Below are positions 6,841-34,396 of a stretch of DNA of 34,396 bases, piece by piece. Within the stretch, counting starts at the first letter, position 1, and each line of letters begins with the position of its first letter. Origin of the DNA: a virus; IMG/VR virus record IMGVR_UViG_3300025647_000126, positions 1-34,396 of that record. The stretch is one strand, 5' to 3'. Under the pieces are notes generated by a model. That model worked only from the letters and a program-made list of their open reading frames with translations, was not told the DNA's origin and ran no database searches. A program made the position numbers and the translations under genes.

Positions 6841-8523
6841 ATGGCGGTCACTACTAACCTGTCTGTTTTTGATGCGGCAGACTCCAGTGGCAAGTGGGCG
6901 GAGTTAGCAGGGCATCTCTCTGGAGGTGCGCCTGCTGCTACGTCTGAAAACTATTGGCAGAATGGTACAGCAGTTGACCAGTCAACAGGTCAGGCAGTTG
7001 GTACATCAGCAGGTATGCAGTGCGACTTTGGTTCTACTCTTTCTTGGACAGGCTCAAGTAAATGGGTCTTTCTGACTTGGAGTAAATATGATGCCGCAAC
7101 GAACATTCAAACATGGGCTAATGGTGGTTTCAGAATAGGTATTGGAACGAGCAGTGGTAACATGGATTTCGTTAATGCCTATGGTAGTGACTTCTCTCCT
7201 TACCCTGCCGGCGGTTGGATTAGTGTAGCTATTGATCCAGAGGTAGCTTTTGCAAGTCCAGATGCTTCTGATGGTTCTGGTCTTACGAGTGGTAGTTATC
7301 GAGTAATAGGGTTCTTGCCTAATACGCTTGCTAAGGTAACGAAGGGTTCACCAATTGTTGCCGATATTATCCGTTATGGTCGTGGTGATATTGTTGTAAC
7401 GGGTACTGAAACTTTCTCCTCAATGGCTACAGCAGATAATACTGCTACTGTGAGATGGGGCTTATTCATACCTAAAGCTACTGGTATTTATGAGTGGAAA
7501 GGCTTAATGAGCCTCGGAACAAGTGGTACAGCGGTATCGCTTACTGACGCTAATAAGACTATCCTCGTTCAAGACACACCAAGAGTAAGCGCAGGGTTTA
7601 ATAAAATTGAAGTATCCAATGCTTCATCAACTGTAAGTTTAGACTCTGTTACCATACAAGGTGTGCAAACAAGTATTACAGGCTCTTCCCCTATCTCTCC
7701 CGGTGACTTTGAAGCGGTCGCTAATGCTAATATTACGTTTACGTCTTGTACGTTTGTTGATTTAGGCACATTTATATTTCAAAGCAATTCAGAAATTATA
7801 GGGTCAATCTTTCGTAGGTGTGAAGCAATAACGCAGGGTGGAGCAACTTTTACTGACTGTTTCTTTATCAACTCTGCCGCTTCTACTGCTTTGACGGTTA
7901 ATGATGCTTCAGTAGTCACTGGATGCACTTTTGTTGGTAATGGAACTACATCGCCCGGACACGCCGTTGATTTAGGCACGATAAATACTGGTGGTTCAGT
8001 AACGATAAACTGGACTAATGAGCTAGACAACGGCACTACTAATCAATCTGTTTGGGAAGGGTCAACACAGTCTCCGACAGCAGGAACGCAAGGTTCTGCA
8101 AATAGCGCTATTACAGTCAACGTAGTTAGCGGCACTGCTCTTAAAATTGCGGTTGGCTCTGGTGCAACTATACCAACAGTACAGAATACTGGTACTGGTA
8201 CGCTCGAAATAACAGCTAATGAAGTAACGCTGACTATTACTGTGCAGGATATTATTACCAATTCTCCAATAGAAGGCGCGATGGTCTATTGTAGAAACTC
8301 AGGCGCAACGGCGACGTACATCGACAAGGTTGAGACTAATTCAAGCGGACAGGTCAGTTTTACTGGTTCATTAGGGTCTGCTCAAACTTTGGCAGGTTCA
8401 GTAAGGGCAGCAACTCCTGATACCCATGCTTACAGTAAGCACTACAAATCTTCACCGATTGTTGGCACGTTCAGTAATTTGAACGATACTAACATTACAA
8501 TTTCATTAATACCGGATGAATAA
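6841..8523 (+). CDS. Tailspike/fibre-like protein with probable beta-helix
   Basis: This 560-residue protein starts two bases after the previous stop. The N-terminal ~210 residues look like a lectin/concanavalin-type beta sandwich (alternating Trp and Gly-rich strands). Residues ~245-390 read as short repeating turns (SVTIQGV, NITFTSCTF, EIIGSIFRRC, ATFTDCFF, VVTGCTF), the pattern of a right-handed parallel beta-helix. A C-terminal segment from ~460 (TLTIVQDIITNSPIEGAMV-like) resembles an Ig/carboxypeptidase-regulatory-type fold. Beta-helix proteins in phage tails are often receptor-binding or glycan-degrading, but I see no catalytic signature. The product overlaps the next gene by one base (TAATG). 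Confidence 0.68.
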   Translation: MAVTTNLSVFDAADSSGKWAELAGHLSGGAPAATSENYWQNGTAVDQSTGQAVGTSAGMQCDFGSTLSWTGSSKWVFLTWSKYDAATNIQTWANGGFRIGIGTSSGNMDFVNAYGSDFSPYPAGGWISVAIDPEVAFASPDASDGSGLTSGSYRVIGFLPNTLAKVTKGSPIVADIIRYGRGDIVVTGTETFSSMATADNTATVRWGLFIPKATGIYEWKGLMSLGTSGTAVSLTDANKTILVQDTPRVSAGFNKIEVSNASSTVSLDSVTIQGVQTSITGSSPISPGDFEAVANANITFTSCTFVDLGTFIFQSNSEIIGSIFRRCEAITQGGATFTDCFFINSAASTALTVNDASVVTGCTFVGNGTTSPGHAVDLGTINTGGSVTINWTNELDNGTTNQSVWEGSTQSPTAGTQGSANSAITVNVVSGTALKIAVGSGATIPTVQNTGTGTLEITANEVTLTITVQDIITNSPIEGAMVYCRNSGATATYIDKVETNSSGQVSFTGSLGSAQTLAGSVRAATPDTHAYSKHYKSSPIVGTFSNLNDTNITISLIPDE

Positions 8524-8726: not shown

Positions 8727-10704
8727 TTGGTCTACCAAGGTAATCACTGTTGAGCAGAACACTCCGGGGGTTGTTTCCTTCATAGGTGGCTCTGTCTACG
8801 AGTTAGACACCTTTGCTTTCCGTCTTGCTCTGAAGGACTTGGAGGATTCAGAGGTAGGCATGTCTATGCCAGATACTCATAGGCATAATACTCAGGTGTT
8901 GCTTGGTGGTATCTACTACGCTCGTACCATCGAAATCATCAACGGTTACACCATCACATTTGAAGAAACTGGAAGTCCTTATGTGGTCAATCTTGTTGGC
9001 TCTAACAATAATATCCTTGATGTTACTAACTTGGGAACTGTTCAGATAAGGTCGAACAACTCCGCAGGGCTTATTAACGTAAAAGAGTTGCAGCACGGTA
9101 TCTTTGGCGAAGAAGTCCATCTGGATCAAAACGGTGGTACGCCCGGAACTGTGTACCCTGCCGGTACGCCCCTTCAGCCAGTTAATAACGTGCCCGATGC
9201 TATGACCATCGCTGCTGTTCGTGGCTTTACCAGAATCCACGTTATCGGCAACCTTACCCTAGATACCGGAGATAATATCGAGGGTATGATCCTGATGGGC
9301 GAGAACGCCACCAATACTCAAATTACCGTAAACTCAGGAGCAGACACACAAGGTTGTGAGATTCAGGAAGCCAGTGTCACAGGTAATCTGGACGGTGGCA
9401 CGATCCTTCGTAACTGCGTAATCGACAACCTGAACTACATTAACGGGTTTGTGTACAGTTGTATGATAAACCCCGGCACTATTGCGCTTGGCGGGTCTGA
9501 TACCGCTCATTTCCTAGACTGCTACTCCGGTGTTCCGGGGGTCGGAACTCCTACCATCGATTGTGACGGTATAGGCATCCAAGCTACTCCATTGGCTATA
9601 CGCGGGTACAATGGTGGCATCAAATTGATAGATATGACAGGTGGCCAAGCTACTTCCATTGACTTGGCATCAGGTCAGGTAATCATAGACTCTACCTGTG
9701 TATCGGGAACTGTTGTTGTACGTGGGGATGGGAAAGTCATTGACGAGAATGGAACATATCTTAATTCTGGTGTTATCAACGGCGGCCTTACTCTTGTTAA
9801 TGAGACTACTTCCGGTGACGTAGTAACTACCGCTGTAGCCAAAGCTGTGTGGGATACGAACCCTGCAAGTCACATTGCAGAAGGCACAATGGGGCATCTG
9901 CTCAACTATCTGGACTACATGGAGAAAGTTGTCTACTGTGACCCAGAAGCACTGGTTAACGGCGAAGGTAGTCAGGAAAAACCGTTTAACAATATCACCG
10001 ATGCCATAGATTTTGCTGAAGCGCACAATGTAACCACTTTGATAGTGACTTCAGATATTGCGATTGATCGTAATGTAAAGAATCTGAAAGTGGTAGGTGT
10101 AGGTGTTCCAGAAGTGGATACAGTAGGTTATGACTTGAAGAACTCAGAGTTCCACAGAGTTCAGTTCAAGGGACTTTATTCTGAGTCGGTTATTGTACAA
10201 GAGTCTGTACTTACCAATGGTGCGTATCTGAACGGCTTTTTTGAGAACTGTGCTGTGGCAGGTAACGTAGCTACGGTAGCTAGCTCGATCACCTACATGA
10301 AGAATTGCGCCAGTTCGATGCCAAACGGCTTTACGCCTGCTATCAGCATAGGTGCTGACTCAGTTCTTAATGTTGCGGAGTGGTATGGAAAGCTCAGTAT
10401 TGTGGGGTGCTCTACCGCTAATTCTAGCGTTATTATCAACCTCAGTAGTGGTAGCGTTACTCTGGACGCAACTTGTATTTCTGGAACGATTCTCATTACT
10501 GGTGTTGGTAGTGTTACTGACTATAGCCTTGGGGCTACTGTTATCAATAATGCAGTAGATCCTGCTACGACCGGAGCTACTCCTTCTGATATTGCTGATG
10601 CTGTCTGGGACGAGGCTATTGCCGATCATGCGACTCCCGGATCGTTTGGTCATTATGTAGGCAAGAAGCTGCTCTCTGTAGCTAAATTTATAGGACTAAA
10701 ATAA
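8710..10704 (+). CDS. Tail-fibre/tailspike protein with tandem duplicated beta-helix unit
   Basis: I chose the ATG at 8710 (664 residues), which has GGGGAAG about nine bases upstream; a GTG at 8689 would add seven residues. The N-terminal ~100 residues contain IINGYTIT, matching the 4988-6838 protein. Two related units follow. Each has a 'P...V/I...DA...A....T.I.V' segment, later a C(V/I)SGT strand within a GxV..D context (near residues 330 and 590), and an AVWD...H...G..GH segment (near residues 379 and 635). The AVWD segment is widespread in phage tail proteins. The C-terminus (KKLLSVAKFIGLK) is helical. The central units look like beta-helix. The protein is probably a virion receptor-binding or spike component; no catalytic residues can be assigned. 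Confidence 0.72.
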   Translation: MAILIDWSTKVITVEQNTPGVVSFIGGSVYELDTFAFRLALKDLEDSEVGMSMPDTHRHNTQVLLGGIYYARTIEIINGYTITFEETGSPYVVNLVGSNNNILDVTNLGTVQIRSNNSAGLINVKELQHGIFGEEVHLDQNGGTPGTVYPAGTPLQPVNNVPDAMTIAAVRGFTRIHVIGNLTLDTGDNIEGMILMGENATNTQITVNSGADTQGCEIQEASVTGNLDGGTILRNCVIDNLNYINGFVYSCMINPGTIALGGSDTAHFLDCYSGVPGVGTPTIDCDGIGIQATPLAIRGYNGGIKLIDMTGGQATSIDLASGQVIIDSTCVSGTVVVRGDGKVIDENGTYLNSGVINGGLTLVNETTSGDVVTTAVAKAVWDTNPASHIAEGTMGHLLNYLDYMEKVVYCDPEALVNGEGSQEKPFNNITDAIDFAEAHNVTTLIVTSDIAIDRNVKNLKVVGVGVPEVDTVGYDLKNSEFHRVQFKGLYSESVIVQESVLTNGAYLNGFFENCAVAGNVATVASSITYMKNCASSMPNGFTPAISIGADSVLNVAEWYGKLSIVGCSTANSSVIINLSSGSVTLDATCISGTILITGVGSVTDYSLGATVINNAVDPATTGATPSDIADAVWDEAIADHATPGSFGHYVGKKLLSVAKFIGLK

Positions 10705-11063
10705 TGGGCTGTGCTGTAAAACAACCGCTAGAAATAGAACAAGGGGCAACCTTCAAGTTCAAGATTAACTGGTTTCAGGATGATGAGATCACACCTGTCG
10801 ACCTGACTAACTACACTGCCCGTATGCAAGTACGCTCGGAAGTGACTTCGACAACCGTTTTGTTGGAGTTGACCACTGAAAATGGGCGTATCACAATGAA
10901 CGGCGCATCAGGTGTAATCGACCTGTATGTGTCCGCTACAGATACCGCTGCTTTGACTTTCACGGCAGGGGTTTATGATTTAGAATTGGTAGATGGATCA
11001 AACAGCGATGTCTACCGTCTCATGTACGGTTTAATTGAAGTTTCACCGGAAGTAACTCGATAG
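10704..11063 (+). CDS. Small tail-fibre adaptor protein, paralogue 2
   Basis: This 119-residue protein is coupled by TAATG to the fibre gene upstream. It repeats the signature of the 3835-4206 product: IEQGATF, PVDLTNYTARMQVRSE, VYDLELVDGS and terminal VSPEVTR. The hydrophobic pattern and length also match, so this is a paralogue. The Cys and basic residues at the N-terminus (MGCAVKQ) are the main difference; the Cys is not preceded by a signal peptide. It probably docks a fibre in the tail or baseplate, as inferred for paralogue 1. Confidence 0.75.
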   Translation: MGCAVKQPLEIEQGATFKFKINWFQDDEITPVDLTNYTARMQVRSEVTSTTVLLELTTENGRITMNGASGVIDLYVSATDTAALTFTAGVYDLELVDGSNSDVYRLMYGLIEVSPEVTR

Positions 11064-11076
11064 GAGAGTAAAACAA

Positions 11077-11487
11077 ATGGCTGCATTAAGTGATTTTTTA
11101 GAATTAGAGCTGTTGGATCATATTCTGCGTAATGAAACGTGGACTCCCCCAACATCGGTGTGGATTGCGTTGTTCACTGCCGATAATGGTCTGGAAACTA
11201 ACGTACAGACAAGCGAAGTATCTGGTGGCTCGTATGCTCGTTTGGAAGTAGGTGGATCATCAGGACGCAGTTTTACTGTAGCGGCTGCGGGTGCGACTAC
11301 TAGCAATGAGGATTGGATTTTTCCAACTGCTACCGCTGATTGGGGCACAATTACTCACTGTGCGGTGATGTCCGCTTCCTCCGCAGGTCAGGTGTTGATC
11401 CACGGCTCATTGACTGCCCAGAAAACCGTTAATAACGGAGATACCTTCAAGTTCTCCGTTGGTGATTTCGACGTTACGATGGCGTAA
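11077..11487 (+). CDS. Conserved phage tail/structural protein (LLDHILR...WIALFT type)
   Basis: This 136-residue protein starts after a good ribosome site (TAGGAGAG). Its pattern is one I recognise as a widespread phage structural family: an N-terminal helix with LELLDHIL, a WIALFTADNG strand, SGGSYAR, then a Trp-Gly-Thr turn (ADWGTITHCAVM) and a C-terminal GDTFKFSVGDFDVTM segment. Members sit among tail-fibre genes and are usually annotated only as phage structural or tail fibre protein. Here it is directly between the second adaptor paralogue and the next small tail gene. The family match is from memory, not a database search. Confidence 0.7.
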   Translation: MAALSDFLELELLDHILRNETWTPPTSVWIALFTADNGLETNVQTSEVSGGSYARLEVGGSSGRSFTVAAAGATTSNEDWIFPTATADWGTITHCAVMSASSAGQVLIHGSLTAQKTVNNGDTFKFSVGDFDVTMA

Positions 11488-11819
11488 TGAAAATCCTTGG
11501 ATGGAAAGCGTGGTACACACAGAACAGGGTATATTCTTCTGCTAAGATAGCGTGGGAGGATTTACCCAAAAAGGGTGTACTGTTTGTCGTAGTATTTTAC
11601 GCTACTGGAAGTCGTGAAATACTTAATGGCGTACGTCGCTACTTCCAAGCTACTGGTAGCTCTGGTAATAAATTTATCAAAGGCAGTCTGTGGCGGCAGA
11701 AGACACTCCTCGATACGTATGAAACCTCTGATGCCGAAATAAAAGAAGGTGTCTGGGACGACGACGAGACCGTTGCGCGGATTGCTAAGGAAGCAAGTGA
11801 AGCGCAATGGCATGGGTAG
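11487..11819 (+). CDS. Conserved small phage protein (LGWKAWYTQNRVYSS type)
   Basis: This 110-residue protein is coupled by TAATG to the preceding gene. The N-terminus (LGWKAWYTQNRVYSSA, then WEDLPKKGVLFVVVFY) resembles small proteins commonly found in phage tail-fibre regions. A beta-rich first half is followed by a charged helix (residues ~75-110). No catalytic motif is seen. It overlaps the next gene by 13 bases. Function unknown; context suggests a tail accessory protein. Confidence 0.65.
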   Translation: MKILGWKAWYTQNRVYSSAKIAWEDLPKKGVLFVVVFYATGSREILNGVRRYFQATGSSGNKFIKGSLWRQKTLLDTYETSDAEIKEGVWDDDETVARIAKEASEAQWHG

Positions 11820-24550: not shown

Positions 24551-26527
24551 CTATTTAACTTCGCCGTAATTATCGCCCCACCCACCATCGGCATTAATGG
24601 GTAGTCCTTCGCACCAGTCTGGTACTTTACGCATACAACTCAATCCGAAGTTGTAGGCTTCCTCGGCTTCGTCTTCTTCAGCCAAGTACACAACCTCATC
24701 ATGCGTCATCATCACAATCGGGTATTGAGACGCTATTTCAAGCATCTGCTCACCCACTACAATACGGGCAAGGCATTGGATCAGGTTTTCAGCCAGTAGC
24801 CCACCATATATCTTGCCTCTGGTGTGCTTGCCTGTACGGTATGAGAACTCTTCTCCCTCACCGTATGCCGTATCATATTGAATCCGTTTTAAGTCGGGAT
24901 AATGCAAATAGAGACCGTTTGGCATCAGTATCTTCTGCCCTCTAACCTGTGCAATTACCTCGCCTGATGTTTGAGATGTGATGTTGTATGTCTCGTTGTC
25001 ATACATTTTCTGGATAACTCGAAACATTCTGTTCCAGTTTTCCACAACATGCTCTGAAGCATCACGATATTTTTTGTGAGCTAGATGGATGTCTTTTTCA
25101 GATAGGTCGCTTTCGAGTACAGGAGGTCCCATAGCGCCTGATCTGAGCATGTAAGTAAACTTTGCAGCTCCGCACTGGTAGCCGAGACCGAGCCTTGCAA
25201 CCTTTCCAACGAATCGCTGAGACTTGGTAACTTCGTCAACCGGGACATCGTAAATTTTACTTGCCATGAGTTTGTAGTTGTCGAGGTTAGCTCGATACGC
25301 TTCGAGTACATCACTTTGTCCTGAGACCCAAGCATTCATTCGATCCTCAATCTGAGATGAGTCGATTACGACTATCTTATAGCCTTCTGGTGGTATCAGT
25401 GATTCCCTGATCCGCGAGTCTGTACGCGAGGAGGGGAAGTTCTGAGGGTTAATCTTGTCTCCACCCGTCCATCGCATTGTATGTGCCTTACAATAGTTGA
25501 GCATGACGGGCAGAGTAGGCTTACTGTGAAGAATAAGTCTTTCAGCTCTTGACTCTCCGATTGTGGACTTGACAGAAAGCCTTGCTTCCACAAGCTCCCG
25601 CACTCTTGCGTCAGGATGGACTTGCAAGTTTTGGAACGCAATATCGTTTTTTGCGAAGGCATAAGTCATCGTATCCGGATTAGATGGACTTGGCTTTAAT
25701 GGGGCTTCCGCTCCAAAGTATTCAAGCATCTTAGCGAACTGAGGATTCGAACTCAAGGCTGATTCAAAGGCAACACGATTTTCCTGATGTAAAAGGTGCA
25801 TGATCTTATCCATCAGCGCGTCTTTCTTGTCACGTTCACGCATCCACTCTTCGTAAACCAGATTATGATTTACGTTAAGCAAAGGACGAGCAAACGCTTG
25901 GATGGTAATGTTAATAAGATCAAGCTCATCTTGTGGATAACTTGGTAGCATCTTGTTAAAGATCTTCCACATGATGTTTACATCATTCATGCAGTAGTAG
26001 ATCATGGCTGCTTGTAACTTATCGTCCATATCATCCCACTGCTTGCCCTTTGCTTGAGCGAGAATACCGGGGGTTTTTGCACCGAGAAGATAATGTTTGG
26101 CTACTTCGTCTAGTGATGCACTGATGTCGTGACTATGTAAGCCACGAGCCATGCTCATAGAATCGTAGTAATAAGCAGGAGTGATCCCAAAGTGCTGACT
26201 AAGAATAAAGCCGTCGAAAGCAGCGTTGTGAGCCAGAACCGCAGTTCGATCCCAATCGAAGTGACTGAGAAACTCTGCCAAGTCATCTGGCCTGTACCAA
26301 GTAGTTTGGCCACCGTCCACGGAGACAGCCGCGCCGTGAATTTCGGATTTTTGTAAATCGCGCACATACTGCGTGGTCGAGAGTTTTGTGAGAGAGAAGT
26401 GTTGGCCATAATATGTCTCAAAATCTATCCCTAAAATCGTAGTCGGTCGAGCCGTAGAATTCACCATCCTCGGTGAAAATGGTCGGTCGTCCTCTGGTTC
26501 CGGTTTGACTATGCTTCCCCACCCCAT
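24551..26527 (-). CDS. Family A DNA polymerase with 3'-5' exonuclease
   Basis: This is a 658-residue protein, close to T7-type polymerases in length. The proofreading domain shows ExoI DFE (35-37), ExoII HNAAFDGF with Asp105, and ExoIII YCMND (Tyr178, Asp182). The polymerase domain shows motif A IDSSQIEDR (Asp389), motif B-like KVARLGLGYQ and motif C THDEV (His609, Asp610). All catalytic residues are present. AAGGAG precedes the ATG. No 5'-3' exonuclease domain is fused. It should replicate the phage genome, with the SNF2 helicase, Cys4 protein and PD-(D/E)XK nuclease of the same operon as likely partners. The 5' 107 bases overlap a small upstream ORF. Confidence 0.95.
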   Translation of the reverse strand: MGWGSIVKPEPEDDRPFSPRMVNSTARPTTILGIDFETYYGQHFSLTKLSTTQYVRDLQKSEIHGAAVSVDGGQTTWYRPDDLAEFLSHFDWDRTAVLAHNAAFDGFILSQHFGITPAYYYDSMSMARGLHSHDISASLDEVAKHYLLGAKTPGILAQAKGKQWDDMDDKLQAAMIYYCMNDVNIMWKIFNKMLPSYPQDELDLINITIQAFARPLLNVNHNLVYEEWMRERDKKDALMDKIMHLLHQENRVAFESALSSNPQFAKMLEYFGAEAPLKPSPSNPDTMTYAFAKNDIAFQNLQVHPDARVRELVEARLSVKSTIGESRAERLILHSKPTLPVMLNYCKAHTMRWTGGDKINPQNFPSSRTDSRIRESLIPPEGYKIVVIDSSQIEDRMNAWVSGQSDVLEAYRANLDNYKLMASKIYDVPVDEVTKSQRFVGKVARLGLGYQCGAAKFTYMLRSGAMGPPVLESDLSEKDIHLAHKKYRDASEHVVENWNRMFRVIQKMYDNETYNITSQTSGEVIAQVRGQKILMPNGLYLHYPDLKRIQYDTAYGEGEEFSYRTGKHTRGKIYGGLLAENLIQCLARIVVGEQMLEIASQYPIVMMTHDEVVYLAEEDEAEEAYNFGLSCMRKVPDWCEGLPINADGGWGDNYGEVK

Positions 26528-26633: not shown

Positions 26634-26797
26634 ATCACATTCACCTGTACCCCATTTATTTCAATAATTCCGGGAACGTTTTCTTCTTCACACATTTCAA
26701 CGTACAGGTCGAAAGGGATGTCTATTACATAGATTTCCGCCTCGTTCTGCAACTGTATTGTGTCAAAGTATTCAACAATTTCAGAAACCACAGTCAT
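26630..26797 (-). CDS. Small acidic protein (55 residues)
   Basis: This short gene opens with an ATG overlapping the SNF2 stop (ATGA) and ends with a TGA overlapping the next ATG (ATGA). The product starts MTVVSEIVEYFDTIQLQNEA, continues through YVIDIPFDLYVEMCEEENV and ends with a strand-turn-strand (IIEINGVQVNVI). It is acidic and looks foldable. Coupling at both ends makes it a convincing gene. No function is recognised. Confidence 0.65.
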   Translation of the reverse strand: MTVVSEIVEYFDTIQLQNEAEIYVIDIPFDLYVEMCEEENVPGIIEINGVQVNVI

Positions 26798-28275
26798 GTC
26801 AGTAACTCCAGAAGGTTGAGCATTTTATCCAAGCGTTCAGCAAGGATAACATTAACTCTCTCTTCCAGAGTACCAACGGCTTCGATCATAAGTGTTTCAG
26901 TACGTTCTGTTTGACCGGCACGGTAGATACGGTGGTTAGCCTGTTTGAAGAGGCTTGGTTGGTAGATCGGACTCGCCCAGATCGTTGTCTTGCCTTTGGT
27001 AAGTGTGAGTCCGTGACCCGCCGATTTAGGATGCAAGAGTAAAGTCTGGAAACGACCCTCTTGGTATCCCTCCACAATATCTTTTCGTCTTCCGTCAGGA
27101 ACAGTTCCATCAATGACTTCATAGCTTATCCTCTCTTTATCGAATAGCTCCATCAAAAGTTCTTTCTGGTGTCTCCACTGAAAGAACACTACAGAGTGAT
27201 CTCGCTCTTTAACTAATTCAGTTATCAAGTGATAACGATCACTGTCTATTAATACACGCTCACCATCTTCTGTATAAACTGCACCAGAAGCGATTTGAAG
27301 TAACTTTTGAGCCATAACCGCAGCATTCACAGCGGTTACATCACCTTCAGTTGCTTCAATAAGAGCGTCATCACGCATAGTCTCATAGTCAACCATGTGT
27401 GAAGGGTTAAGGTGAAAAGGAATCCGTCGCGTTACGTTTGGTGGAATATCAAGACACTCCTCAAACTTGTTACGGATAGTAAAGGATGACATCAGGTGTG
27501 CGATCTCACGGTCTATACCGGGCTTATCAACCCAAATCCGCATTTCCGGTCGCGGCCCCACTTGCTCAGGGATACTTACAGCCGAGCGAAATTGGAAGAA
27601 ACTCTTGCCAAGTAATGCTCCCTGATCGAGAAGGTACACCTGATGCCATAACTCGCACACAGACTTGTTAAACGGTGTAGCAGTCATAACAGTTCTGTAT
27701 TTAAACATTGGCATTACCTTGGCCATTGCCTTGGAACGCTGCGATGTATGGTTCTTGAACGCTTCAGCCTCATCGACAATCACTGTATCGAAGTCAGCGA
27801 GAAGCGTTTTAAGTGATTTACATTTAGATAACCATTTAACACCGTCGTGATTAATAACCACGATTTGTGCTTCCGGTACAAAGCCTTTTTCCTTCTGTTT
27901 AGCACCACACACAGACACAGTGTATTCTTCAGGATAAAATTTCATTACATCGTTTGCCCAAGCCGCAAATTGAATGGACTTTGGACAAAAAACAAGAAGT
28001 TTACCCCCACCTTCTTGGCGTCTTTTGTGCCAAACACGAAGGTGGGCAAAAGTTTTACCAGTACCCGCATCTGACATATCAAAGATAATGTCAGTTGTTT
28101 TGGATACTTGTTCAGCTTTACGTTGATGATTATAAGGACGGATAGCTTTGAAGTTATCAGGTTTTACACCTGTATAGACTTCAACCAGTTGTTTTTTGTG
28201 ACTACGTTTGCCTTCAGTAATATTATGTCGTACGTACTTCTTCGGCTCCGTCTTTTGAAGATTGTTCCAACCCAT
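26794..28275 (-). CDS. SNF2-family DNA helicase/translocase
   Basis: This 493-residue protein carries the superfamily 2 SNF2 motifs in order: Walker A DAGTGKT (69-75, Lys74), LVFCPKS (Ia), VIVDEAEAFKN (Walker B, Asp168-Glu169), MTATPFN (motif III), SVVFFQW (motif IV), SAGHGLTL (motif V) and QANHRIYRAGQT (motif VI, arginine finger). AGGAG precedes the start, which lies inside the end of the DUF3310 gene (53-base overlap). Compact SNF2 proteins are usual in phage replication modules, where they probably remodel DNA-protein complexes or branched DNA. It is followed by coupled small genes and the DNA polymerase. Confidence 0.92.
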   Translation of the reverse strand: MGWNNLQKTEPKKYVRHNITEGKRSHKKQLVEVYTGVKPDNFKAIRPYNHQRKAEQVSKTTDIIFDMSDAGTGKTFAHLRVWHKRRQEGGGKLLVFCPKSIQFAAWANDVMKFYPEEYTVSVCGAKQKEKGFVPEAQIVVINHDGVKWLSKCKSLKTLLADFDTVIVDEAEAFKNHTSQRSKAMAKVMPMFKYRTVMTATPFNKSVCELWHQVYLLDQGALLGKSFFQFRSAVSIPEQVGPRPEMRIWVDKPGIDREIAHLMSSFTIRNKFEECLDIPPNVTRRIPFHLNPSHMVDYETMRDDALIEATEGDVTAVNAAVMAQKLLQIASGAVYTEDGERVLIDSDRYHLITELVKERDHSVVFFQWRHQKELLMELFDKERISYEVIDGTVPDGRRKDIVEGYQEGRFQTLLLHPKSAGHGLTLTKGKTTIWASPIYQPSLFKQANHRIYRAGQTERTETLMIEAVGTLEERVNVILAERLDKMLNLLELLT

Positions 28276-28939: not shown

Positions 28940-29254
28940 CTAAAGTCGCATTGAAATAAATTTATTATGTAATTCAGCGTTAAACCCATCATGTACTGTA
29001 TAGTCTGTATGCTTTCCTGACTTTTTACTGCGCCCTTCTGTCTTTATCTGAGAGCAAGTACCACACTTGATCGCACCAGTATTAGAACGCTTACGTAAAG
29101 CATCTTGAGACATTTGCTTTACCTTTCCACAATTACAGCATTCGCATAAGTATTGTGGTATTAAACCTTTTAGTGTCATCGATGGCTCAGCGAAACTAAG
29201 GATTCGCATATTACCTACAACTTGATTTTTCAAGTAAGCCCTATTCATTGCCAT
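28940..29254 (-). CDS. Zinc-ribbon protein, HNH/AP2-associated type
   Basis: This 104-residue protein has a Cys cluster CECCNCGKVK (Cys37, 39, 40, 42) and CGTC (Cys64, 67), preceded by VVGNMRILSFAEP. The layout 'VG.M.IL.F......YLC.C.CG......L......CG.C' is that of the small zinc ribbon often found ahead of HNH or AP2 domains in phage proteins, but no HNH residues follow. It may be a stand-alone nucleic-acid-binding remnant or relative. Its start lies inside the TraR-like gene end (14-base overlap). Confidence 0.6.
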   Translation of the reverse strand: MAMNRAYLKNQVVGNMRILSFAEPSMTLKGLIPQYLCECCNCGKVKQMSQDALRKRSNTGAIKCGTCSQIKTEGRSKKSGKHTDYTVHDGFNAELHNKFISMRL

Positions 29255-29459
29255 ATTTAATTCCCGTCCATTCGCAAAGTTCCTGACAGTCTACGCAGGT
29301 TTGTACTCCCGGTATGGCTAATTGGCGTTCTGATGGGATCTGTTCCCCACACATTGTACAGTCATCAGCGGTTTCTTCTTGATATACATACCCTCTCGCA
29401 GCGGCTTTAAGTTTCTCTAACATAGCTTCTTGTTCCGAAACGCGGTCTGCATCGTCCAT
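29241..29459 (-). CDS. TraR/DksA-type zinc-finger regulator of RNA polymerase
   Basis: This 72-residue protein is almost the length of F-plasmid TraR. It carries the family's C4 zinc finger: CTMCGEQIPSERQLAIPG then CVDC (Cys34, 37, 55, 58). The N-terminal acidic tip MDDADRVSEQEA resembles the Asp-bearing element of DksA/TraR that enters the RNA polymerase secondary channel. It probably binds host RNA polymerase and shifts transcription, mimicking DksA with or without ppGpp. GGAGG lies upstream, and an intrinsic terminator precedes the gene, so it may have its own transcription control. Confidence 0.85.
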   Translation of the reverse strand: MDDADRVSEQEAMLEKLKAAARGYVYQEETADDCTMCGEQIPSERQLAIPGVQTCVDCQELCEWTGIKYGNE

Positions 29460-29859: not shown

Positions 29860-30072
29860 TTACGCGCCCTTTGCCGCCTTAGCGATCAGGATACGCGCAC
29901 CGTCTGACAGAACGGCGTCAGTATCGGCGTCAGAGCCGTTGAGCTTCAGGGTTTCTCCTGAAGTCAAGGTAACGCCTGCTGCGCTCAGAGCGTCAGAGAC
30001 GGTAGCACCGTCTTCAACACCTACTTCAACGACAGCACCGGGTACGCGAATAACTTTAGCAATAATAGCCAT
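29860..30072 (-). CDS. Ubiquitin-like/ThiS-MoaD-like beta-grasp modifier
   Basis: This 70-residue protein fits the beta-grasp fold: two strands (AKVIRVPG, VVEVGVE), a helix (TVSDALSAAG), then ETLKLNGS and a last strand DGARILIA followed by KAAKGA. The 'l.dGARI.I' end is typical of ThiS/MoaD/Ubl proteins. The C-terminus is Lys-Gly-Ala, so removal of one Ala would expose Gly; the JAB protein of the same operon could do this. Genes for E1-, E2- and JAB-like proteins lie upstream on the same strand, supporting a conjugated modifier. Hand counts over 29881-30060 give about 57% G+C versus about 41% in sampled lines of the adjoining 143-residue gene. The ribosome site AAGGAG is within a hairpin, and a slippery AAAGGGC precedes the stop. 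Confidence 0.8.
   Translation of the reverse strand: MAIIAKVIRVPGAVVEVGVEDGATVSDALSAAGVTLTSGETLKLNGSDADTDAVLSDGARILIAKAAKGA
29866..29872 (-). promoter_or_regulatory. Possible -1 ribosomal frameshift site (A-AAG-GGC)
   Basis: On the minus strand the heptamer AAAGGGC is read A-AAG-GGC in the Ubl frame, matching the X-XXY-YYZ slippery form, two codons before the stop. A -1 slip would read AAA-GGG and continue for 26 more residues (starting RVSAIGVGPKDGFQMRS) to a TAG at 29786-29788, giving 95 residues. An 11-bp stem starts about 14 bases downstream, farther than usual for a stimulator. The Lys-Gly before the divergence is shared by both products. This is a hypothesis from sequence only. Confidence 0.35.
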
Positions 30073-30075
30073 GTG

Positions 30076-30093
30076 AATATCTCCTTAGATATT
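30076..30093 (-). promoter_or_regulatory. Hairpin sequestering the Ubl ribosome-binding site
   Basis: On the minus strand AATATCT and AGATATT form a perfect 7-bp stem around a four-base AAGG loop, and the Shine-Dalgarno AAGGAG spans the loop and the 3' arm. The ATG follows three bases after the stem. Such an AU-rich hairpin could limit translation at low temperature or be bound by a protein. The structure is seen; regulation is inferred. Confidence 0.5.
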
Positions 30094-30523
30094 AAAGTGA
30101 AGAAATAAGGAACTTAAATTCGTTCCATAATTGTGGTGATGGTGACGCGTCACACGAATTAACCATCAGTTTTATCTCGTCAAGAAGAGGATTCTTCCTG
30201 ATCGTAGATTCATGTACGACACCAGTAAACTTCGTACGAAGCATATCGATGTCTTCATCGGGCAAAGATGCAATTTGATCATCAGTTGCATCAGCAATAA
30301 CGTGAGCAGCTTTCTCAATCGCATCTGACTCTTGCGAGTCATTAGAACGAGTACGAGTAAGGTCACGGCTATACTCAAAACCGTGATCTATTGCTAACTC
30401 GATAAAGCGGTTAACCTCATCGTCACTGCAATTGTTGTAAATATCGTCAATGTCTTCATCCCATTCGGGATCGACAGTGACATAAACTTCTGTTTCGTAA
30501 TCACTATAACTAACTCTTGGCAT
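30092..30523 (-). CDS. Hypothetical acidic protein of the conjugation cassette
   Basis: This 143-residue protein has a near-perfect ribosome site (AGGAGG). It starts with strands (PRVSYSDYETEVYVTVDP) and continues with acidic helices (DEDIDDIYNNCSDDEVNRFI; DQIASLPDEDIDMLRTKF). No known domain is recognised and it has no membrane segment. It lies just upstream of the Ubl gene (20-base gap), so it is probably expressed with the E1/E2/JAB/Ubl set. It might be an accessory factor or an early substrate; nothing in the sequence decides. Confidence 0.65.
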   Translation of the reverse strand: MPRVSYSDYETEVYVTVDPEWDEDIDDIYNNCSDDEVNRFIELAIDHGFEYSRDLTRTRSNDSQESDAIEKAAHVIADATDDQIASLPDEDIDMLRTKFTGVVHESTIRKNPLLDEIKLMVNSCDASPSPQLWNEFKFLISSL

Positions 30524-30531
30524 GTAGCCTC

Positions 30532-30912
30532 CTATAAATAGATCAAAGTTTCTTCCAACAACTCAACCGCCATTGATAGCGATGGATTGTTGTCCACGTT
30601 TGCCACACCAGATGTGAATTCTTCAATCTCCTCAGATAATTTCTCAGGATCACCAAAAGGTCCGACATCTTCTTCAGGATGTGCAGGATGGAAATAGTCA
30701 GCCCAATGAGTAATGACTACTTCACTAGACTTAGTTGTCTGTGCAAAATCGGGATCAAGACAAACAATGTCTTTTGCATCTGTTCCAACATACATCAGAG
30801 TTGTGAACACGTACTCAGGTTCGGTTATATAATAACCAGCTACGTAACACATACCAATTGGCACTGCATCGAATGTTGTGAAATCTTCCCACTCAAGCTG
30901 CTGCTTCTTCAT
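30532..30912 (-). CDS. Hypothetical protein downstream of the E2-like gene
   Basis: I chose the ATG at 30912 (126 residues, MKKQQLEWEDF), which has GGAG about ten bases upstream and overlaps the E2-like gene end by 20 bases; an ATG at 30954 lies deeper in that gene without a ribosome site. The first 75 residues are beta-rich (TFDAVPIGMCYVAGYY, YVFTTLMYVG), with a His/Pro segment (YFHPAHPEEDVG) and an acidic helical C-terminus. The family is not recognised. It belongs to the conjugation operon by position and overlap. Confidence 0.62.
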   Translation of the reverse strand: MKKQQLEWEDFTTFDAVPIGMCYVAGYYITEPEYVFTTLMYVGTDAKDIVCLDPDFAQTTKSSEVVITHWADYFHPAHPEEDVGPFGDPEKLSEEIEEFTSGVANVDNNPSLSMAVELLEETLIYL

Positions 30913-31918
30913 TTTCTTCTGTCTCCGGTTTAAAGTACTCTTCGTATGTGTCATATAATGTTACGTTTGCATTGTTTCCATCTAACTGGATACGAGCGAA
31001 CTTAGGCCCAATCATTATGATCTGTTCTACTAACTGATTCTGTGGATTGCGAGCTGCGTAAGTACGAACAGTCTCATCAATACCCGGAACAAGTTGTAAC
31101 CAACGCCACCAGTAGCGACCTGCTGCATCGTCAACTGTTGCATTGGAGAGGAACATCTCCATCAACGACGCCAGAGTTGGCCAATCCTGTTCGCTAATCG
31201 CCTCTGCAACCGGGGTGGTATAATCACCAAGACAAGGACGACTATTATCGAGAATATGAGGATGACCTGTTGGCCTACCACTGAAATTCTCGATACGGCG
31301 ACCACCACGGATAGGAATAATAGCAACGGAATTATTACGTACATAGAAAGTACACGTTAAAGGTTCAAGTTTGATCTTTACAGGACCACCGTTGTTAATA
31401 GATGGATAATTGTTATTGTCAGGAGACATCCAAATATCATCATAACGCCAACGAACAAACTGACCATGTGTATCTTCACCAACACATACTGTGCGAGGAT
31501 TAACAGCGGCTATGTTTGAAAGCGATTGTTTAACTCCATCCTTACTGATGTGAATCATTTCATTATCAGTAAGACGAGCACGCTGTTCCTTAATCGGAGA
31601 CAATTCACGATTGTGATTTGATATGTCACGCTCTGTACGTTCGATCGAAGCTTGATTATTCTGTTCGCTAAGCGATAGATCGTGGAGTATTACACGTATC
31701 TTGGTTTGTAAAAAGTCTGGGACAGCGATACCAGCACGAGTTACCTTCTCATTGTACTCAGTAATTGCTTTCTGATCTTCAACATATTCATCTAAGTCTT
31801 GACGCATACTTACAATACGTTGATTCCAATTAGTTATCTGTTCTTCGAATCGTCTGATCCTGTAATCCAGATCCTGAACTTGTGGATTTTTAAACTCAAT
31901 TTCTTTTAGTAATCCCAT
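30893..31918 (-). CDS. E2-like (UBC/RWD-type) ubiquitin-conjugating protein with N-terminal coiled coil
   Basis: Residues ~1-115 of this 341-residue protein form a charged coiled coil. The core has strands (KIKLEPLTCTFYVRN, SVAIIPIRG) leading to GHPHILDNSRPCLGD (218-232). This matches the E2 active-site pattern HPN(I/V)...G..CL, with His219-Pro220 and Cys229 as the likely thioester cysteine. DWPTLASLMEMFL (245-257) then resembles the helix after the E2 catalytic site. Prokaryotic E2-like families in Ubl operons have this HPH...C-L/G signature (family knowledge from memory). The start overlaps the JAB gene by 13 bases. It should accept the Ubl from the E1 and pass it to a target or hold it as a thioester. 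Confidence 0.72.
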   Translation of the reverse strand: MGLLKEIEFKNPQVQDLDYRIRRFEEQITNWNQRIVSMRQDLDEYVEDQKAITEYNEKVTRAGIAVPDFLQTKIRVILHDLSLSEQNNQASIERTERDISNHNRELSPIKEQRARLTDNEMIHISKDGVKQSLSNIAAVNPRTVCVGEDTHGQFVRWRYDDIWMSPDNNNYPSINNGGPVKIKLEPLTCTFYVRNNSVAIIPIRGGRRIENFSGRPTGHPHILDNSRPCLGDYTTPVAEAISEQDWPTLASLMEMFLSNATVDDAAGRYWWRWLQLVPGIDETVRTYAARNPQNQLVEQIIMIGPKFARIQLDGNNANVTLYDTYEEYFKPETEENEEAAA

Positions 31919-32712
31919 TTGTCATAGTCTCCCCAACGCCAATTCAAATACTGATCGCGTTGATTCTTAAACTGTTGATTCATTTGAGTTGCTGGTACTG
32001 CTTGGTTATTTCTTAAACCACCATACCCATAACCATTGTTAACAGGTTGTGTATATGTACGCTTCTTAACTTTTGCTGCAATCTCATCTTTCAGAGCTTT
32101 GAGCCATTCAGCATCGTAACGCTCATCTTTAACTGCATGGTCTACTTTCTGATAGACAAGTTTGTGGTTCATATCGAATACATCGACCTTTGCTTCCATC
32201 TTCTTGTTGTAGATACCACGAATGAAGAAGTCACAATGTTCGATGTATTCGTTGGTTTGATTTTCGTCAGTACCAGACGGACTGACACCCATGTTTACGT
32301 GGGAATGACCCCAGAACCGTAATTTTGTTGAATCCATGCCGCGGCTTTCAAGATCAACTGCCAGATTAGCGACAGCATCAGATTCAATATCTGTGGTAAC
32401 ACCACTTACCTCCTGTTCTAAGAGAAAGATTTCAGTGATTAAATAATCACCAGTTTCGGTCTTATCGACCATGCCGAGCCAACCCACTTCTTCCGGGCAA
32501 AGCTCAACAATCTTCCACATCTTCGTCCACGCATCCCGTGTGTAGTACACCGTCGGCATCTGTGTTGTGCCAATTGGTGTAATCGTTTTGGTCTGTGAAG
32601 TTGCATTGAACTGCAACGGTTTAGGTGCGGGTTTCGGTGTGGTAGTGGTTGGTACATACTTACCACCAGTTGCTCCAACCACGTAATGTGGTTTCTTTCC
32701 TTTCTTCGACAT
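31906..32712 (-). CDS. JAB/JAMM metalloprotease (deubiquitinase-like)
   Basis: This 268-residue protein has a low-complexity Thr/Pro/Lys N-terminus (1-50), then a JAB domain. The JAMM zinc site is complete: PEEVGWLG (Glu74/75) and GHSHVNMGVSPSGTD with His136, His138, Ser146 and Asp149, the exact HxH-x7-S-x2-D spacing. A Gln/Asn/Tyr-rich C-terminal tail (from ~210) follows. JAB proteins beside Ubl genes trim the Ubl C-terminus or remove it from targets; here trimming of the terminal Ala of the 29860-30072 product is a natural guess. CGGAGG precedes the ATG. The gene lies directly before the E2-like gene. Confidence 0.9.
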   Translation of the reverse strand: MSKKGKKPHYVVGATGGKYVPTTTTPKPAPKPLQFNATSQTKTITPIGTTQMPTVYYTRDAWTKMWKIVELCPEEVGWLGMVDKTETGDYLITEIFLLEQEVSGVTTDIESDAVANLAVDLESRGMDSTKLRFWGHSHVNMGVSPSGTDENQTNEYIEHCDFFIRGIYNKKMEAKVDVFDMNHKLVYQKVDHAVKDERYDAEWLKALKDEIAAKVKKRTYTQPVNNGYGYGGLRNNQAVPATQMNQQFKNQRDQYLNWRWGDYDKWDY

Positions 32713-32730: not shown

Positions 32731-32910
32731 TTAAAAATCTGTTTCCAGTGCTTTCTCTGCAATGTCATGTATTCCGATGTCTATTGTTTCTTTGGTAATA
32801 ACATTTAGTGCCTCACGATAGCGATCACGTTCTACTTCAAGTTCTTCAATGCGCTCAACTAATTCGCTACGAATAAAAGTTTGATACCTAAATAATCCTT
32901 GAATACTCAT
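32731..32910 (-). CDS. Small helical protein, paralogue of upstream gene product
   Basis: This 59-residue protein starts with an ATG overlapping the previous stop (ATGA). The segment RIEELEVERDRYREALNVI followed by IHDIAEKALE mirrors the C-terminal part of the gene upstream (ERALYHEALELI...RIANEALE), so the two are related. The 'RxxYREAL...IA..AL' pattern is frequent in small phage proteins. It may be a coiled-coil accessory protein. No function is known. Confidence 0.62.
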   Translation of the reverse strand: MSIQGLFRYQTFIRSELVERIEELEVERDRYREALNVITKETIDIGIHDIAEKALETDF

Positions 32911-33203
32911 TTCTCACCTTCCAGTGCTTCATTTGCTATACGTAAGTTTGGTATGATTAAGTTATTATCCCAAGCCGACATAGCCTTATAGTTTTCTACA
33001 ATTAGTTCTAGTGCTTCATGATAAAGGGCACGTTCTGTTAAAATGTCTGACATTCTTAATGATAAATGTTGGATTTCTTTTGCAAATTCATCACGTTCTG
33101 CTATTAACTGTTCAACATCCTCATATTTAACATACTCACCGTCAGCATCTTCATCAGCAAATGTATTGCCGTCAGTTGTTGAGTAAATACAGTATCGTTT
33201 CAT
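32907..33203 (-). CDS. Small acidic helical protein between E1- and JAB-like genes
   Basis: I chose the ATG at 33203, which overlaps the E1-like gene's stop (ATGA), giving 98 residues (MKRYCIYSTTDGNTF); a Met two residues earlier is possible. A beta-strand start and acidic stretch are followed by a long helix (VEQLIAERDEFAKEIQHLSL). It is coupled at both ends, with its C-terminal part similar to the following 59-residue product. Function unknown; position makes it part of the conjugation operon. Confidence 0.65.
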   Translation of the reverse strand: MKRYCIYSTTDGNTFADEDADGEYVKYEDVEQLIAERDEFAKEIQHLSLRMSDILTERALYHEALELIVENYKAMSAWDNNLIIPNLRIANEALEGEK

Positions 33204-33874
33204 TGGCATAACGTTAACGGCTTAAAGAAGATCTCAATGTTCTCTTCCATTGCAGCAGGCTCATGACGCAGGTGCATGAACTGCCATACTGCCAAGTTCG
33301 CAATGAGTGATGCTGTAGTACCAACAGTCAGGGTTGAGCCACAAGCACTCAACTCTGTGTTGTCATCATTCTCAGGAAGGTTCTTGAAGTACTTACGAAT
33401 TGATGACTCATTAATCATATTCACATACACCACATTGCCGTGAGTACTAGCCATACGCGTATCGAATACATTGAAAGTACTGTCATCTTGTTTGAACTTC
33501 TCTATCAACATACGACGTGCTTCAATGCTATCAACGCACATAAAGACTGTGCCGTGATTAATCGTCTGAGACTCAGGTGTTACCTTCTCTTGAAGGAACG
33601 TCATTGTGTCTGGTACGTAACCGAGCTTCATACGAACCAAGTCCTCCATCGCATACACTTTCGATACGCCGATGTGACAGTCCATGAAAGCCTGATTAGC
33701 GAGGTTATGTGCTTCAACCTCATCAAAGTCGATGAATGTAAGTTTAGTTAAACCGAGTTCAACAAGCGCCATACCAACTCTTGAGCCGATAGCGCCAACA
33801 CCGATTACCGTAACTGGGTAATCGTATTTATGGACGGGGAAAACCTCGTCATGTCTAATGGTACTGATGCCCAT
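33200..33874 (-). CDS. E1-like ThiF/MoeB-family adenylating enzyme
   Basis: I chose the ATG at 33874, seven codons into the longest frame, because GGGAG lies nine bases upstream; an ATG at 33892 is the alternative. The 224-residue product has a Rossmann nucleotide-binding loop VIGVGAIGS (Gly25, 27, 30), FIDFDEVEAHNLANQAF (Asp49, Asp51, Asn57), GVSKVYAM (Lys72) and CVDSIEARR (Asp115, Arg120), all in E1 order. ELSACGST contains Cys178, the best candidate for a catalytic thiol. The usual NLxRQ arginine is replaced (NLANQ), and there are no CxxC zinc pairs, so this is a short, single-domain E1. It should adenylate the Ubl C-terminus and load it on Cys before transfer to the E2-like protein. Confidence 0.85.
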   Translation of the reverse strand: MGISTIRHDEVFPVHKYDYPVTVIGVGAIGSRVGMALVELGLTKLTFIDFDEVEAHNLANQAFMDCHIGVSKVYAMEDLVRMKLGYVPDTMTFLQEKVTPESQTINHGTVFMCVDSIEARRMLIEKFKQDDSTFNVFDTRMASTHGNVVYVNMINESSIRKYFKNLPENDDNTELSACGSTLTVGTTASLIANLAVWQFMHLRHEPAAMEENIEIFFKPLTLCQ

Positions 33875-34396
33875 GTTCTTCACTCCCGACATTAATGTCT
33901 TTCAACGTGTAAATTGTATTTCCTACTGTCCACTCAGTAGGTCCGACCCATGTGGGCCTTACCCAAACCTTACTTCCATATTTGGGGTGGTTACTAAAAC
34001 GTGGATTAGTTAATCTTCTCCAATGACCACGACGGTTATGACCGCGATGAGTCTTGTGAGATCCTTTTACTGGTTCCCCACTACGCTCAACCACAATGCG
34101 AGGAGCGTCAAGATATACGTAATGAGGTAAATCTTCACGATGGGGTAATGGTTTACCTTTACGTTTTGATTTAGCATTAGCAGCTTTCTGTGCAGGTGTA
34201 AGCACACGTCTTACTTCAACCAGATGCTTATCTCGCGCTTTTTGTAAAGTCTTCAGAATGAATAACAGCTTGTTCATCATTAATTGCATAAACAGTACTG
34301 ATGTTTCGTCCTGAATTTCTGCAAAATCTATACTGTGTAGTAACTCTTGCTCTACTAAAATAGCATTTTCCAGATGACCAATTGTAATTTTGTTAT
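33855..34396 (-). CDS. Basic protein with His/Arg/Trp-rich C-terminus (5' end outside window)
   Basis: The frame is open from its stop at 33855 to the right-hand window edge, so the true start lies beyond 34396; at least ~180 residues are visible. The first part is helical (HLENAILVEQELLHSIDFAE, then QLMMNKLLFILKTLQKARDK). From the middle it is strongly basic, with a HRGHNRRGHWRRL segment and KVWVRPTWVGPTEW near the end. The RRGHWR...WV.P.WVG pattern recalls small phage and plasmid proteins of unknown role. It overlaps the E1-like gene by 20 bases, linking it to the cassette. It may bind nucleic acid. Confidence 0.6.
   Translation of the reverse strand, partial: NKITIGHLENAILVEQELLHSIDFAEIQDETSVLFMQLMMNKLLFILKTLQKARDKHLVEVRRVLTPAQKAANAKSKRKGKPLPHREDLPHYVYLDAPRIVVERSGEPVKGSHKTHRGHNRRGHWRRLTNPRFSNHPKYGSKVWVRPTWVGPTEWTVGNTIYTLKDINVGSEEHGHQYH

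Follow-up and report, generated by a model that had tools for sequence, protein, structure and literature searches.

Operons in which a ubiquitin-like modifier (Ubl), an E1, an E2, and a JAB protease are encoded together have been predicted in prokaryotes since 2006, and in the available part of that survey phages enter only through their tail-assembly Ubl and JAB proteins (PMC1779556). Later work demonstrated a defence role for related prokaryotic systems (PMC10097602, PMC11153139). Here, we analysed a virus record of 34,396 bases, the whole of which is referred to as the window, and found that an E2-like gene flagged there by an original prediction belongs to a four-gene phage cassette composed of Ubl, E2, a JAB/JAMM protease, and E1. 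No account of a phage-borne cassette of these four genes was found in the open-access literature, a scope that leaves room for an earlier description elsewhere, and two crAss-phage papers do not mention such a cassette. The Ubl-E1-E2-JAB operon type itself is known; its phage-borne variant with a hairpin-bearing E2 is new to the literature searched.

The BilABCD antiphage system, a further bacterial Ubl-conjugation system active in phage conflict, consists of Ubl, E2, JAB, and E1. Its four parts are the same as in the phage cassette and are likewise separate proteins, but Bil is host-carried, whereas the present cassette is carried by a phage and its E2 has a helical hairpin. PADLOC 2.0.0, which possibly does not include Bil models, gave no Bil-named match and recognised the genes only with generic E1-E2 and JAB models. 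The modifier UFM1 has a single-Gly-type tail after trimming that a trimmed phage Ubl would resemble, and UFC1 was among the best Foldseek matches of the phage E2 core. Meanwhile, UFC1 has no hairpin, and the enzymes that process UFM1 are cysteine proteases rather than a JAB. The phage E1 scored 42 bits against the PRTRC_ThiF model (TIGR03736), below its cut-off of 144.75; PRTRC is presumably the operon type 6d of the 2006 survey.

Operon types 6a-6e of Iyer et al. 2006 also have separate, clustered Ubl, JAB, E1, and E2 genes, and type 6d combines these four with a helical protein (PMC1779556). The 6d E2s have no His upstream of the Cys and one downstream, and the 6d Ubl has a conserved C-terminal Gly (PMC1779556). 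In contrast, PH precedes the Cys in the phage E2, and none of the phage Ubls end in Gly. CBASS type II (Cap2/Cap3) shares the E1, E2, and JAB chemistry and the setting of phage-bacteria conflict; however, Cap2 fuses E2 with E1 and its target involves a nucleotide cyclase, whereas the phage genes are separate ORFs with a dedicated Ubl (PMC10097602, PMC11153139). No CD-NTase or cyclase was recognised among the scanned neighbouring ORFs, which does not agree with an assignment to CBASS type II. The Ub/E1/E2/Rpn11 operon of Caldiarchaeum subterraneum is also compact, and its Rpn11-type JAMM protease processes a Ub precursor, but this operon includes a small RING E3 and none was recognised in the phage cassette (PMC5654768, PMC6043591). 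The phage proteins are far diverged from those of the C. subterraneum operon.

The cassette and the phages that carry it

The carrier of the cassette is an uncultivated tailed phage with a bacterial host. A minus-strand block occupies the right end of the window (Table 1). PHROG matches were absent for the scanned large ORFs between 4988 and 18945, and from these ORFs the phage appears to be a divergent one. In a relative with 90% identity (L002/L010/L013), JAB is likewise followed by E2, two ORFs, and then Ubl; the contig of this relative begins past the expected position of E1.

Table 1. Features of the window with their positions, strand, and distinguishing details.
Feature	Positions	Strand	Details
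1277-aa ORF	2-3835		matches a phage virion structural family
Phage DNA polymerase	24551-26527	-	minus-strand block
Helicase	26794-28275	-	minus-strand block
Ubiquitin-like modifier (beta-grasp)	29860..30072	-	70 aa, ends ...AKAAKGA
143-aa ORF between E2 and Ubl	30092..30523	-	elsewhere only in the 90% relative
140-aa ORF between E2 and Ubl	30532..30954	-	elsewhere only in the 90% relative
E2-like (UBC-fold) protein with N-terminal helical hairpin and UBC core	30893..31918	-	341 aa, ATG start
Predicted UBC (E2) core, residues 120-290	31049..31561	-	from the model of residues 120-295
Active-site block GHPHILDNSRPCLGD, residues 218-232	31223..31267	-	Pro220, His221, Cys229 invariant
Predicted antiparallel helical (coiled-coil) hairpin, residues 12-119	31562..31885	-	AlphaFold helices 12-61 and 68-119
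JAB/JAMM metalloprotease-like protein	31906..32712	-	268 aa; E75, H136-S-H138, S146, D149
JAMM motif HSHVNMGVSPSGTD (HxHx7SxxD), residues 136-149	32266..32307	-	
100-aa ORF between E1 and JAB	32907..33209	-	outside the conserved cassette
E1-like ThiF-family adenylating enzyme	33200..33892	-	230 aa, candidate catalytic Cys184; Pfam ThiF

Loci were collected with an alignment of three JABs, which retrieved 157 viral contigs, 80 of which were kept, and six MAG contigs of bacterial or archaeal origin were added. Scans with the single proteins E2, JAB, or E1 gave near-identical relatives only. According to the family profiles, 65 of the 88 loci contain all four components, and E2 and JAB are neighbours there; it should be noted that several loci come from nearly identical contigs or from fragments. 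Many different viral contigs carry the cassette, in a sporadic pattern. The putative catalytic residues of E1, JAB, and E2 are all intact in it.

A tblastn search of 50,697 public phage records with JAB or E2 yielded a sole match, the unannotated faecal scaffold MT835544.1, whose cassette has the order Ubl, E2, JAB, E1. The BLASTP comparison of the window E2 with the E2 of this scaffold was not significant, and the two are linked by the position of their genes, by the PH...C motif, and by family members that lie between them. The same scaffold (L012) encodes seven small paralogous proteins of 67-93 aa (1928-2443 and 9511-11700) that end E-C-x-C-x-S-L-L, a tail not seen in the ORFs of the other loci, as well as a reverse-transcriptase-like ORF (YADDMMF; 6954-8291) immediately 3' of the E1 gene. 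At two further loci (L053:5793-6437 and L064:5794-6438), Ubl is fused to a conserved protein of ~140 aa that precedes Ubl in the MT835544-type cassettes, hinting that this protein may be a partner or a target of the Ubl.

As in the original prediction, no E3-like gene was recognised nearby. Two adjacent small zinc-type ORFs were considered as E3 candidates and rejected: that at 28940-29254 is HNH-like and unlike RING, and that at 29241-29459 is, by eye, unlike RING as well.

Two named phages have genes that resemble parts of the cassette. In the cultured phage crAss001 (L099:7395-11805), Gp76-Gp79 are adjacent: Gp76 is a ThiF protein, Gp77 is a JAB with HSHNNMATFFSGTD, Gp78 is a possible, strongly diverged E2 (...MHSHV...PCTGRG, no profile support), and the N-terminus of Gp79 looks Ubl-like by eye. 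Perhaps these genes represent the same system in a phage that is amenable to experiments. The Xanthomonas phage PhiXhv-12 (L100:3247-6621) encodes an 892-aa protein with the E2 core HPHMAVPSSQESHGSLCLGS (core profile E 2e-7), and a ThiF gene follows directly. Both termini of this protein are very Cys-rich and could be zinc-binding, E3-like modules.

Active site and fold of the E2-like protein

The gene had been proposed to encode an E2-like protein on the basis of the block GHPHILDNSRPCLGD with His219, Pro220, and Cys229. All these positions are as claimed, and the distance of 10 residues between position 219 and Cys229 equals the His-to-Cys spacing of the canonical E2 site HPN(x7)C and agrees with a catalytic Cys about 8-10 residues past an HPN-type motif. 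Both in an alignment of 24 full-length proteins and in one of 34 cores, the latter with identity down to 14%, Pro220, His221, and Cys229 are invariant, and Gly231 and Asp264 are conserved in more than 90% of the relatives. The expected invariance of the three residues thus holds for Pro220 and Cys229, and fails for His219, which is Ala or Gly in several homologues (L093, L097, L042, L036, and L034). Homologues lacking the Cys were looked for, and Cys229 was present in 34/34 cores.

The canonical tripeptide HPN is replaced with HPH in the window and with xPH across the family, the invariant His221 standing in place of Asn. Since HPN is not universal among known E2s, its loss does not exclude membership in the UBC superfamily. 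In E2s of the UbcH5b type, HPN(x7)C is followed by an acidic loop (PDDP) ~31-32 residues past the Cys. The phage family has a conserved VDDAAG loop 34-35 residues past Cys229, which may be the equivalent of that acidic loop.

The xP[HN]...C motif was found in the JAB-adjacent ORF at 68 of the 87 loci. The loci had been collected with a pattern that did not include E2, and this recurrence beside JAB is far beyond chance. In the window, the start of the E2 gene overlaps the end of the JAB gene by 13 bases. The comparison with L013 gave a dN/dS of 0.20, and the E2 gene evolves under purifying selection. The C-terminal extension varies in the family from 3 to 419 residues. One protein (L097:3194-4744) contains two UBC cores with the PH...C motif in each, while L034 and L036 have two E2 genes apiece, one of the L036 copies having no motif.

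Family databases did not recognise the protein. No E2-family match above the cut-off was obtained for the window protein in Pfam, PHROG, and NCBIfam; the 34 cores likewise had none in the Pfam and PHROG searches, and the searches with the whole E2 sequence (Pfam, PHROGs, NCBIfam, PADLOC, and PDB) returned coiled-coil noise only. Weak Pfam matches, e.g., SPATA19, were below the cut-off and were discarded.

The AlphaFold model of the full-length E2 (pLDDT 81.6, pTM 0.63) agrees with the predicted N-terminal coiled coil of ~115 residues, which is modelled as an antiparallel hairpin. The hairpin matched only generic coiled coils in the searches with this model and swamped its fold search; therefore, the core was predicted separately (residues 120-295; pLDDT 88.8, pTM 0.85). 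A structural comparison had been suggested as a check of the original prediction, and a structure unrelated to UBC/RWD was looked for. With the core model as the query, E2/UEV structures filled all 50 of the best VIA-align rows (Z 6.2-7.6, 100-124 residues, 3.2-4.1 A). The top match was UBE2S (Z 7.6), the best Z corresponding to 119 residues at 3.3 A; Ubc13 scored Z 7.3 and UbcH5b Z 6.8-6.9, and UEV domains (Tsg101) were also among the matches. The leading Foldseek matches of the core were UbcH7 (E 0.026) and then UFC1, both weak, with E-values >0.01. The modelled core very probably has the UBC fold (helix, four-strand meander, active-site loop, helices), though the Z of 6-8 is moderate; the case is made by the unanimity and coverage of the matches, the invariant Cys, and the gene context rather than by the absolute Z.

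The ~110 extra C-terminal residues described in the original prediction are only partly extra: 109 residues do follow the motif, but about half of them belong to the UBC helices (residues 231-276), and the truly additional part is about the last 50-60 residues, which are weakly modelled. A helical segment precedes the core in 40 of 56 relatives, as counted by a crude heuristic, and because of this wide recurrence the hairpin probably matters. As the fold, the motif, the invariant Cys, and the gene context agree, the flagged gene very probably encodes the conjugating enzyme of a phage E2 family unrecognised by the protein-family databases searched.

Modifier, protease, and activating enzyme

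The Ubl of the window scored 24.8 bits against Pfam Ub-Mut7C (cut-off 23), and a profile of its relatives matched SAMP2 in the PDB (E 1e-4) and also ThiS; judged by its sequence, the Ubl is a beta-grasp modifier domain. It shows zero amino-acid change between the window and its relatives at a dS of 0.22. None of the 86 phage Ubl ORFs has a terminal Gly as translated, the Gly being penultimate in the window. The tail is [KR]G[NA] in 52 of these ORFs, the window included (...AKGA), and K..[NS]A in 27. Some Ubl ORFs run on past KGN by up to about 23 residues, and in several phages one ORF holds a tandem array of two or three Ubl units, most of which end [IV][KR]G[NA]. Such tails and tandem units are as expected for precursors that a JAB-like protease would process. 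Cleavage after the Gly would give a single-Gly end in the [KR]G[NA] class; the K..[NS]A class has no corresponding Gly.

The JAB protein has the complete zinc site E ... HxHx7SxxD (E75, H136, H138, S146, and D149). These residues, together with N169 and K170, are kept in 81/81 proteins; the search pattern itself accounts for part of the conservation of GHSHVNM, but not for that of the other positions. The profile match of JAB to RPN11 is weak (E 0.007). Meanwhile, E1 matched Pfam ThiF at E 5e-20 (72 bits vs a cut-off of 28). Asp121, Arg146, and Cys184 are invariant in E1 (75/75), and Gly31, Gly33, Asp55, Asp57, Asn63, Asn66, Gln67, and Lys78 are found in 74/75. The GxGxxG nucleotide motif, Asp121, and Cys184 are present in 73-75 of the 75 proteins. 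Between the window and its relatives, dN/dS was 0.08 for JAB and 0.06 for E1.

A proposed tagging relay and its alternatives

We consider it highly likely that the gene encodes the E2 of a self-contained Ubl protein-tagging cassette of a tailed phage, which would work through an E1-E2 relay and a JAB. The JAB would trim the Ubl (70 aa) at the [K/R]G[N/A] tail or close to it, and the ThiF-type E1, in view of its family and invariant residues, would adenylate the Ubl C-terminus with ATP. The fold and the invariant Cys suggest that the Ubl then moves, perhaps via Cys184 of E1, to Cys229 of E2 as a thioester. From there, E2 would attach the Ubl to lysine residues of its targets, no separate E3 having been found, and JAB could take the tag off again. 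The cassette probably acts early, because its neighbours on the minus strand include the phage genes for DNA polymerase and helicase, and we speculate that host or phage proteins of replication or defence might be its targets.

Directly after the hairpin comes the first UBC helix; in eukaryotic E2s, this helix makes contact with E1. Since an E1 of 230 aa cannot fit the extra domains of eukaryotic E1, the hairpin may aid E1 docking, and a role in substrate binding, with the coiled coil taking over target recognition from an E3 as the original prediction suggested, is equally possible; more speculatively, it probably docks one or the other. A bolder and rather doubtful extension is that these phages represent a tagging class of their own, spread in many uncultivated phages, with a non-glycine (Asn/Ala) modifier end and a hairpin E2 that replaces the E1 docking domain and E3.

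If the cascade is real, its main purpose could be counter-defence or superinfection exclusion, with host-defence or rival-phage proteins being tagged, and not the regulation of proteins of the phage itself; we give this somewhat less than an even chance. The involvement of bacterial Ubl conjugation in phage conflict, as in CBASS Cap2/Cap3 (PMC10097602, PMC11153139), and the sporadic occurrence of the cassette among many different viral contigs are consistent with such a role, but no defence-gene neighbour was found and the cassette adjoins replication genes.

It is improbable that E1 and Ubl constitute a sulfur-carrier (ThiS/MoaD-type) pathway, in which JAB would trim the carrier and the "E2" would be a non-conjugating accessory protein. 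The short, ThiF/MoeB-type E1 and the resemblance of Ubl to ThiS, SAMP2, and Mut7-C ubiquitin would suit such a pathway, and JAB-containing sulfur-carrier operons are described in the 2006 survey (PMC1779556). However, a UBC-type ORF with PH...C adjoins JAB at 68/87 loci and its Cys is invariant in the 34 aligned E2 cores, while no sulfur-metabolism gene was seen among the nearby scanned ORFs, and the terminal Gly that typifies sulfur carriers is absent from all the Ubls. Even less credible is an inactive UEV/RWD-type scaffold with the coiled coil and core as an assembly platform: despite the UEV domains (Tsg101) among the structural matches, the large N-terminal helical region, and the altered HPN motif, Cys229 is present in 34/34 cores, whereas UEV/RWD domains have no such Cys, and Asp264, close to where the acidic loop usually lies, is conserved as well.

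Conjugation by a phage-encoded relay would be of interest for several reasons. The cassette adds an E2 family missed by the family databases searched, and with it further architectures: helical hairpins, tandem E2 domains, tandem Ubls, and modifiers with no terminal Gly. It also bears on E1-E2 pathways that work without dedicated E3 enzymes. The likely counterpart in crAss001 (Gp76-Gp79), a phage in culture, would allow direct testing. Bacterial Ubl conjugation is known mainly as a host defence; a complete and widespread phage cassette raises the reverse possibility that viruses tag proteins inside bacteria.
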